From Caldilineaceae bacterium SB0661_bin_32 (GTDB lineage Bacteria > Chloroflexota > Anaerolineae > Caldilineales > Caldilineaceae), in assembly GCA_009841235.1 (NCBI GenBank), contig VXMH01000104.1, positions 1 to 64,000 on the forward strand: a stretch of DNA of 64,000 nt, in the 5' to 3' direction. Each line of letters starts with the position of its first letter. Within the stretch, counting starts at the first letter, position 1. Position numbers and translations under genes: made by a program. The notes under the pieces were generated by a model. The model had not been told where the DNA came from. It made no database searches and was given only the letters and a program-made list of their open reading frames with translations. Shown one piece after another: positions 12,338 through 14,977 of the stretch.

Positions 12338-13330
12338 TTACTCGCTCTTTGCAAATACCCACTCCAACAAGCGCTTGACGGCAAATACGGCGCCTAACAG
12401 AAGGAACAGGCCTGCGCTCCAGCGAACTCCGGTGAAGAACTGCGCACGAAGTTTTTCCAATGCCAATGATTCTCCCAGGTCTCCCAGAATTCCGGGCTGC
12501 GGAACGATTTCACTCTGGTCGGACGAAGAGGCCTGGCTTTCCGTTGTACTACTGTCGTCACCCTGGGAAGGCGGCGGCGGAGTTGTCGTTGGCTCTTCCG
12601 TTGCACCCTCGATGTTCGGCTGCTCTACACGGACCTCAGCGACCGTAGGTTGCGGGTATGGTGTCGGCGTATCTATGGGAATCGGTGTCGGAGTTGGTCC
12701 GTCAGGCGTAGGCGTGATCGGATCCTGGCCGACACTTATGTTATGTACGAAGAACTCCGCATAGTTTCCATCCGGCCGTACGACCCGCAGGCGCAGTGTG
12801 TAGGCGCCTGGCGCAAGGACATCGGTATGCCACACACCCAGCTGTCCGTTGACAACCTGACGTGGTTCCCCGCCGAAATACTTGAAGGCTTCCTCGCCCC
12901 TTGACGACTCCTTGTAGGAGAGCTCATAGCGGGCGAAAGGCGTGCCGGTTGCCGTTCCCATGATCGGCACAGGCCCGCTGACGCTGCTGCCTTGTTCGGG
13001 GGAGGTGATGCCGGACTGGGTAGTCTGTTCATTGCGGGCTTGTACTCGATCCAGTCGATAGTCCTGGAACTGGTCGCGCAACTCTTCCGCGCCGAATTGG
13101 TTTACAGCCGCATTGGAAGTGCCGGCAACGAGGGCCAGCCCAAACAGTCCCGGGGCAAGCAGACTCAAAAGGCAGGGAACGAGCAGTTGCAAGAGTCGTA
13201 AATGTCTCCTGGGACGGGTCTTGCGATTCTCAGTCATATGCATAACGGTCTTCTTCAAGCTTTCAGGGGCCGCATCCGACATTTCAGGGCCGTCGCCGTT
13301 TGCCACACCGGGCGATACATACCGGCCCAA
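12338..13330 (-). CDS. Membrane-anchored surface protein with PT-rich linker and C-terminal TM helix
   Basis: N-terminal hydrophobic segment, Ig-like region (GAYTLRLRVVRPDGNYAEFFVHNISV), PTPTPDGPTPTPIPIDTPTP linker, C-terminal TM. Confidence 0.6.
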   Translation of the reverse strand: MGRYVSPGVANGDGPEMSDAAPESLKKTVMHMTENRKTRPRRHLRLLQLLVPCLLSLLAPGLFGLALVAGTSNAAVNQFGAEELRDQFQDYRLDRVQARNEQTTQSGITSPEQGSSVSGPVPIMGTATGTPFARYELSYKESSRGEEAFKYFGGEPRQVVNGQLGVWHTDVLAPGAYTLRLRVVRPDGNYAEFFVHNISVGQDPITPTPDGPTPTPIPIDTPTPYPQPTVAEVRVEQPNIEGATEEPTTTPPPPSQGDDSSTTESQASSSDQSEIVPQPGILGDLGESLALEKLRAQFFTGVRWSAGLFLLLGAVFAVKRLLEWVFAKSE

Positions 13331-13341
13331 GAGCTGCAGAA

Positions 13342-14256
13342 CTACTGCAAAGATTTGATGTAAAGGACAATGTCACCAATCTGTTCGTCGGTCAGGCCTG
13401 ACTGTCCACCTGAGGGCGGCATAGCGATGCCTGTGCGATTGTCCGCCGCATCGGCGGCGCGTCCATCGCGGATAACTGTCACCAATTCGTCGTCAGTCAG
13501 TCCAGAAACATGAGGCGAGTCCGCCAAGGCAGTACCCAGCCCTTCCACACCTATCCCATGCTCCCCGTGGCAGGGGGCGCAGGCTTGTGCATAGAGCGCT
13601 GCCCCGTTTTCCAGGCTCGTAGGCGTAGCTGACGGCGCAGGGGTTGGCGTCGGGTCCGCAGAGAGTTCGAGAAATGGCAGCTCCGAAACGAAAGGGAGTT
13701 CCACATCCGGCAAGGAAACATGAATCTTCCCCGCCCGGGCGGCGCCGGCTACGTACAACCCTACCGCAATCAGGACCACAAAGGGCACCGGCCAACGCGG
13801 CCACCGATAGGGCCATGCTTTGCCGGCGCCTCCCGCGTCAGCGGCAATGACCATCAACATGCCGGTAGTAACGGCCATGAACCCGAACATTGCCAGAAGC
13901 GGAATCGTTATGAAACCGAACCAATCGAGCCAGACCGTCGCACAGGTCACCCCTATTCCGCAGGAAGAAGGCGATCCAAAGTATGGTGTCTTTTGAAGCA
14001 GGAAATGATAGACGGCGACACCTTGGCCGACCAGTGAAAAGGGCAAGACCAGATGCGGAAGATGAGGGTCTCTGCGCATAATCCCAAGAGTAAGTAGTCC
14101 CGCAAGAGGATACATCAGGATGCGCTGGTACCAACAGAGAGTGCAAGGTGTAAAGCCGCTCACCTCGCTGAAATAGAGACTGCCCATCGTAGCGGTCCAG
14201 GCCGTAATGAGCGCCCCGTACAGACCGAGTTTTGTCCAAAAGCGTGAACTGTTCAT
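13342..14256 (-). CDS. DsbB/BdbC-type disulfide bond formation protein fused to C-terminal c-type cytochrome
   Basis: CTLCWYQR and SSCGIGVTC loops in a 4-TM DsbB core; fifth TM; PT linker; CAPCH heme motif, AMPPSGG axial Met region and IVLYIKSL. Confidence 0.85.
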   Translation of the reverse strand: MNSSRFWTKLGLYGALITAWTATMGSLYFSEVSGFTPCTLCWYQRILMYPLAGLLTLGIMRRDPHLPHLVLPFSLVGQGVAVYHFLLQKTPYFGSPSSCGIGVTCATVWLDWFGFITIPLLAMFGFMAVTTGMLMVIAADAGGAGKAWPYRWPRWPVPFVVLIAVGLYVAGAARAGKIHVSLPDVELPFVSELPFLELSADPTPTPAPSATPTSLENGAALYAQACAPCHGEHGIGVEGLGTALADSPHVSGLTDDELVTVIRDGRAADAADNRTGIAMPPSGGQSGLTDEQIGDIVLYIKSLQ

Positions 14257-14275: not shown

Positions 14276-14977
14276 TCACTGGTCGGAGGACAGTCGTCTG
14301 TCGATTGCCGCCGAGACCGTTCCGTAGTCGAGCGGATTGTCGACGCGTTCGCCGTTGACCAGCACGGTTGGCGTGCTGTTGTGTCCGGCTGTGCGGGCGG
14401 CCTGCAGGCTCTCCGATATGGTCGGCATATGCTCTTGATTTGTCAGACAGGATGTAAACGTATCTTGATCGAGATCCAGTTCCCCAGCGTAGTCGATCAG
14501 GCGCTCCATGAGAAATGCGTTCGCGCCGGAGGAAGTTGCCTGGAATACTCGATCATGGTAGACCCAGAACCGCCCTTGGTCGGCGGCACACTCGCTCGCC
14601 TGGGCGGCCAGGGACGCGCCGGGTTCGTGTTGCTGCAGGGGAAAGTGTCTGAATTCCAACTTGACTTTTCCGGAGGAGATATAGTTGTCAACGAGGCCGG
14701 GCTTTACGCGCTGGTTGAAGGCGGCACACGCCGGACAGCGAAAGTCTTCCCAGGCTTGAACGGTTACCGGGGCATCGGGATCGCCCAGGATGTTCCGATT
14801 CTGCCAGGCGGAAGAAATACCGGAATAGTCAGGAAGTTCAACTGAAATTGACTCATTGTCAGTTGCTGCGGCCAGGATGACCGCCAGCAGTCCTGCCAGC
14901 AAGGCAACCCCGCCGACAAGATAGATGCTCAGCGACAGCCGCCGTCTGCTATTGGCAATAAGGTCTTTTGCTTTCAC
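14276..14977 (-). CDS. DsbA-family thiol:disulfide oxidoreductase, membrane-anchored
   Basis: EDFRCPACAAFNQRVKP (CPAC), FRHFPLQQHEPG, TPTVLVNGERV; N-terminal TM. Confidence 0.88.
   Translation of the reverse strand: MKAKDLIANSRRRLSLSIYLVGGVALLAGLLAVILAAATDNESISVELPDYSGISSAWQNRNILGDPDAPVTVQAWEDFRCPACAAFNQRVKPGLVDNYISSGKVKLEFRHFPLQQHEPGASLAAQASECAADQGRFWVYHDRVFQATSSGANAFLMERLIDYAGELDLDQDTFTSCLTNQEHMPTISESLQAARTAGHNSTPTVLVNGERVDNPLDYGTVSAAIDRRLSSDQ

Follow-up and report, generated by a model that had tools for sequence, protein, structure and literature searches.

The characterised bacterial DsbB proteins pass electrons to quinones. BdbC of Bacillus and DsbB of E. coli (PF02600, PRK03113) have four transmembrane (TM) helices with the C terminus inside, two external Cys pairs, a CxxC motif followed by the quinone-site Arg and no heme, and their genes adjoin that of a dsbA/bdbD-type partner. 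In DsbI from Campylobacter and Helicobacter, a DsbB-like part with five TM helices and without the second Cys pair is joined to a periplasmic β-propeller (PMC4460558, PMC5403849). LTO1-type proteins combine a VKOR disulfide oxidase with its upstream thioredoxin (PMC3842002), and the mitochondrial FAD protein Erv1 hands electrons to a separate cytochrome c (PMC5203823).

The protein analysed here shares with BdbC and E. coli DsbB the core fold, both external Cys pairs, the CxxC motif with the following quinone-site Arg and the adjoining dsbA-type gene, but it carries a fifth TM helix and a cytochrome c domain in addition. If the orientation predicted below is correct, DsbI comes closest in structure, since it too adds a C-terminal domain outside the cytoplasm to a part with five TM helices; membership in the DsbI group was rejected, as the second Cys pair (C99/C105) is present and a heme carrier domain takes the place of the β-propeller. 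As in LTO1, a disulfide oxidase is joined to a pathway partner, but LTO1 belongs to another membrane family and its partner is the upstream thioredoxin, whereas the partner here would be the downstream electron acceptor. The cytochrome is tethered to the membrane by a linker like that of CcoP and other membrane-anchored respiratory cytochromes c; CcoP, however, is an oxidase subunit and has no DsbB part. The likeness to Erv1/ALR is one of function only, namely a proposed route from a thiol oxidase via cytochrome c to cytochrome oxidase, since Erv1 is unrelated in sequence. A full-text literature search that covered few subscription papers found no report of DsbB fused to cytochrome c; within this literature, the protein is a variant of the DsbB family with an apparently undescribed architecture.

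The fusion protein is encoded in the window, the whole stretch of 64,000 nucleotides analysed (contig VXMH01000104.1, Caldilineaceae bacterium SB0661_bin_32), by an uninterrupted frame of 304 amino acids with an ATG start. The features of the locus are as follows:

12338..13330, minus strand: secreted or anchored Pro-Thr-rich protein, downstream of the fusion gene (syntenic in relatives)
13342..14256, minus strand: DsbB-cytochrome c fusion protein, 304 amino acids (open reading frame, Pfam, NCBIfam, relatives)
13348..13623, minus strand: class-I mono-heme cytochrome c domain, residues 212-303 (Pfam, alignment, structure comparison)
13420..13422, minus strand: Met279, predicted distal heme ligand in AMPPSGG (invariant)
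13567..13581, minus strand: heme-binding motif CAPCH, residues 226-230 (sequence, invariant)
13624..13728, minus strand: Pro/Thr-rich flexible linker, residues 177-211 (low pLDDT)
13735..13791, minus strand: fifth TM helix, residues 156-174 (model; hydropathy segment 154-178)
13834..14256, minus strand: DsbB core, residues 1-141, TM1-TM4 (Pfam DsbB, NCBIfam PRK03113, AlphaFold model)
13942..13962, minus strand: second Cys pair, C99-GIGVT-C105 (invariant)
14122..14124, minus strand: Arg45, corresponding to the quinone-site Arg48 of E. coli DsbB (invariant; alignment to 2hi7_B)
14134..14145, minus strand: first Cys pair, C38-T-L-C41, corresponding to C41-C44 of E. coli DsbB (invariant; alignment to 2hi7_B)
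14276..14977, minus strand: DsbA-like membrane-anchored thioredoxin (CPAC) with a GTG start, upstream of the fusion gene (Pfam Thioredoxin_4, 9.4e-36; DSBA, 2.7e-10)

Profile searches assigned both halves of the protein. Residues 15-114 matched PF02600 (DsbB) with an E-value of 3.7e-11 (44.1 bits versus a curated Pfam cut-off of 22.1), and the NCBIfam model PRK03113 for BdbC-type disulfide oxidoreductases was matched with 1.1e-38 (132.6 bits, cut-off 124). For residues 215-303, Cytochrome_CBB3 (PF13442, 1.3e-12) and Cytochrom_C (PF00034, 3.5e-11) were both above their curated Pfam cut-offs. Neither VKOR (PF07884) nor a FAD-binding Erv domain was matched in the protein at E ≤ 1 in Pfam. A preceding sequence-only reading had proposed a DsbB-like core with CTLC and SSCGIGVTC loops, then a fifth TM helix, a linker and a mono-heme domain with CAPCH and AMPPSGG; all four motifs were found at the expected places, and helix and linker were recovered in the structure model. 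In an alignment of 20 fusions that are 35-89% identical to the window protein, C38, C41, R45, C99, C105, C226, C229, H230 and M279 are invariant, and the CxxCWYQR motif around Arg45 is invariant or nearly so. C38, C41 and R45 align with C41, C44 and R48 of E. coli DsbB (chain 2hi7_B). Among solved chains, the cytochrome domain scored highest against CcoP.

The fusion is real: in these uncultured Chloroflexota, a DsbB thiol oxidase and a cytochrome c lie in one polypeptide. The protein is under purifying selection; within the genus, dN/dS had a median of about 0.06 in the DsbB core and of 0.14 in the cytochrome, ratios that are approximate because dS is near saturation. Together with the intact full-length frame in 19 further genomes of the family, among them one assembled as a single contig, this ruled out an assembly artefact, a frameshift or a pseudogene. 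Two conditions under which the initial proposal would have fallen were thereby checked, since the frame is neither the product of a frameshift or assembly join nor split in close relatives; separate frames occur only in more distant lineages, where they sometimes adjoin.

An AlphaFold model computed with 56 sequences reached a mean pLDDT of 85 (73 in a run with 20 sequences) and placed membrane helices at residues 2-32, 39-60, 66-89, 118-141 and 156-174. The cytochrome domain was modelled confidently with a helical cytochrome fold, and the linker, which is 14-38 residues long in 30 fusions, had a pLDDT of about 50. The best Foldseek matches among solved structures were E. coli DsbB and small cytochromes c (probability 1.0 for the cytochromes); because the E-values were about 0.1, they support the fold loosely, and the assignment rests on the profile matches. 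Positive charge is higher in the loop that joins TM2 to TM3, predicted to be inside, and the C-terminal linker is acid-rich; the average charge of the TM4-TM5 loop is not positive. Model and charges are consistent with a predicted topology in which the N terminus is inside and the C terminus, the heme and both Cys loops are on the outer face, as had been proposed from the sequence. The accompanying claim that the fifth TM helix is what enables the heme to lie on this side stood in so far as the helix would put the C terminus outside; it is not specific to the fusion, since Chloroflexia and family f38 have unfused DsbBs with the fifth helix, right behind which the protein stops. An innovation specific to the fusion was thus ruled out, and as unfused DsbBs already end after a fifth helix, the likely evolutionary path led from four TM helices to five, to which the cytochrome was then added.

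The DsbA-like gene ends 19 bp upstream of the fusion gene, and the two probably share an operon. The order dsbA, fusion gene was also found in L032, L187, L191 and L200, which include other genera, and in L032, L187 and L200 the gene for the Pro-Thr-rich secreted protein follows as in the window. In L188, where the gene caller missed the fusion frame, the gene intervals are compatible with the same order of three. The secreted protein itself has a GITSP-type domain, occurs downstream of dsbB-c in several genera and had no family match in Pfam or NCBIfam; as it contains almost no Cys, it is not an obvious disulfide substrate. Beyond its gene lie a peptidyl-tRNA hydrolase gene and a frame of 1298 amino acids that we take, by eye, to encode a Mfd-like protein.

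The host genome (5.2 Mb, 122 contigs, 98.7% complete), whose named close relatives are Caldilineaceae metagenome-assembled genomes (MAGs), contains one detected DsbB, the fusion, and no VKOR was found in it; the fusion is therefore expected to act as its main disulfide oxidase. For the Ccm system the genome encodes CcmF and a CcmC-type protein. Its bc complex has a Rieske protein, cytochrome b and diheme cytochrome c, and its aa3-type oxidase has COX1 together with a COX2 without a heme motif. A search of this genome for NrfD of alternative complex III found none.

All 20 sampled Caldilineaceae genomes contain a full-length fusion, the 19 relatives being 37-89% identical to the window protein. 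In family f4 the fusion is present in 17 of 20 DsbB-bearing genomes (16 near full-length copies and G266, which is truncated by a contig end), and the three others, all from a single genus, have an unfused protein; in family f34 one genome has it and two do not. Among the 80 best loci of a genome scan, fusions occurred only in records named as Chloroflexota lineages. A plasmid survey for the same architecture gave 252 matching records, none of which covers 80% of the query. The cytochrome domain can be lost, as indicated by two loci. The fusion at L034:1041-1949, from a MAG labelled Litorilinea, has CAACR instead of CxxCH, with sister copies intact; a second MAG with this label (L038) has an intact fusion. 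Litorilinea is a cultivable genus. At L047:920-1588, a DsbB without cytochrome is nested in the fusion clade, and since its downstream GITSP-type gene is still there, a secondary loss is indicated. A DsbB from a contig titled Singulisphaera (Planctomycetota; L061) is nested among Roseiflexaceae sequences; this is probably a mislabelled or contaminated bin.

Three DsbB lineages bear fusions, and two types of cytochrome are involved. The fusion of L041 falls outside the main clade of the DsbB-core tree and groups with Herpetosiphon-like DsbBs, and a single origin of all type-A fusions was rejected (AU p = 3e-5). For the main clade without L041, with L047 counted as a loss, a single origin was not rejected (AU p = 0.29). 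The L051 fusion belongs to another supported DsbB clade (98/98), aligns with the window protein over the DsbB part only, and has a cytochrome of the other type that resembles the free lipoprotein cytochrome of L076 (31% over 134 amino acids). The fusion with a cytochrome c thus arose separately on other DsbB lineages two further times. Genes for copper-centre assembly were seen at both outlying loci, SCO1/SenC and PCuAC following the fusion at L051:4983-7579 and PCuAC near that at L041:3762-5927.

A cytochrome c gene lies within 150 bp of an unfused dsbB in five of 33 inspected Anaerolineae cases (G067, G114, G035, G094 and G104; no cytochrome adjoins in the remaining 28), with 0.03-0.10 expected by chance if a genome has 6-20 cytochrome c genes. 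The independent events number fewer than five, since three of these cases are related and one lies on the opposite strand; if there were two, the same assumptions give a chance probability of 0.0004-0.004, in a test framed after the first examples. The gene order is dsbA, cytochrome c, dsbB in G094 and dsbB-dsbA-cytochrome c in L076. All of the five free cytochromes except that of G104 have lipoprotein signals, by which they would be anchored at this same outer face, and several have Pro/Thr linkers similar to that of the fusion. A lipid anchor with linker and a fifth TM helix with linker would therefore both place a mono-heme cytochrome at this face. No cytochrome c gene was found beside 43 Bacilli dsbB loci, most with flanks of about 5 kb, nor beside those of Chloroflexia except in L054, where it is about 1.6 kb off on the opposite strand. 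With fusions on three DsbB lineages, two cytochrome types and repeated gene adjacency, it is well supported that DsbB is functionally linked to a c-type cytochrome.

Both cytochrome types have their nearest free relatives in respiratory surroundings. The cytochrome domain of the window protein has its best free relatives among lipoprotein cytochromes, of which some are encoded beside NosL and nos-type genes (L175, L179), and the L051-type cytochrome resembles ones whose genes adjoin COX1 and a gene for a cytochrome b/ferredoxin/cytochrome c protein (L173). The latter protein (L173:3518-5947; G050, Anaerolineae) has 809 amino acids and an unusual architecture of cytochrome b, 4Fe-4S clusters, FlpD domain and cytochrome c; its gene adjoins those of COX1 and a lipoprotein cytochrome c.

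With slightly more confidence than doubt, we propose that the fusion is a disulfide-generating oxidase wired to respiration at the level of cytochrome c. Reduced DsbA, encoded just upstream, would deliver electrons to the second Cys pair of the DsbB core, from which they would go on to the first pair and then to a quinone bound at Arg45, which is probably menaquinone. The quinol or semiquinone would then reduce the tethered heme c on the same outer face, one electron at a time, and the heme would be oxidised by the CuA subunit of the aa3-type oxidase, directly or via another cytochrome c. Electrons would in this way bypass the bc complex and the pool of free quinone, wholly or in part. In this scheme, the topology, heme loading, the direction of electron flow, the quinone-to-heme step and the acceptor are inferred. 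Against this proposal, ordinary quinol release would suffice, as the host has a bc complex; many unfused DsbBs, among them 28 of the 33 Anaerolineae cases and those of all Bacilli loci, have no cytochrome beside them, and L034 and L047 show that the domain can be lost.

The cytochrome might instead be a tethered carrier between bc complex and oxidase, with the DsbB part serving mainly as an anchor or the two merely profiting from proximity, and with quinol released to the pool and re-oxidised by the bc complex. The bc complex with its diheme cytochrome c and the aa3-type oxidase of the host, the respiratory gene clusters around relatives of both cytochrome types and a linker length that suffices for a mobile domain would all fit. 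The DsbB part, however, is the most conserved and retains all catalytic residues, which argues against a mere anchor; anchoring alone does not explain why DsbB is the repeated neighbour or partner, and the free neighbouring cytochromes are mostly lipoproteins that need no such anchor. We regard this explanation as unlikely. A role in assembly or maturation, of the Sco/CuA copper centre or of cytochrome c, for example by oxidising thiols near the oxidase in place of general disulfide formation, is suggested by the copper genes beside L051 and L041, but in the main clade, to which the window protein belongs, the linked gene is dsbA and not one of these, and no second DsbB was found in the genome, so that we consider such a specialisation quite improbable.

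The initial proposal that thiol oxidation is coupled to a c-type cytochrome was borne out as far as the link itself is concerned; a direct step from thiol to heme is less likely, because the quinone-site residues are invariant. Reduction of the heme by the DsbB Cys pair without a quinone would profit from the location of both sites on the same predicted outer face, but the retention of Arg45 and the adjoining CxxC indicates that electrons probably pass through a bound quinone on their way from thiols to heme. Moreover, a dithiol yields two electrons and a heme accepts one, a mismatch for which the known solution of DsbB is the quinone intermediate, and we give the quinone-free route very little credence. 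Chance fusion kept by drift, with a cytochrome that has no role in thiol oxidation, would account for L034 and L047 but is hardly credible in view of purifying selection, heme ligands invariant across two families and recurrence by both fusion and adjacency.

Beyond the proposed route from DsbA through bound menaquinone and heme c to the oxidase, a stronger form can be put forward only tentatively: an obligate cytochrome c-dependent disulfide oxidase that evolved several times in Anaerolineae, with the quinone as a bound relay only and with no dependence on the menaquinone pool. If this is true, it is the high-potential end of the respiratory chain, and not that pool, that would drive oxidative folding. 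The potential of menaquinone is close to that of DsbA; with the heme as acceptor, its high potential would make disulfide formation strongly downhill in organisms that rely on menaquinone. By analogy, the fusion may represent a bacterial counterpart of the mitochondrial route from Erv1 to cytochrome c, in one polypeptide, of which several independent natural versions can be compared. The pairing of DsbB and cytochrome c in related bacteria, by separate fusions or as neighbouring genes, suggests that extracellular protein folding joins the respiratory chain at the level of cytochrome c.
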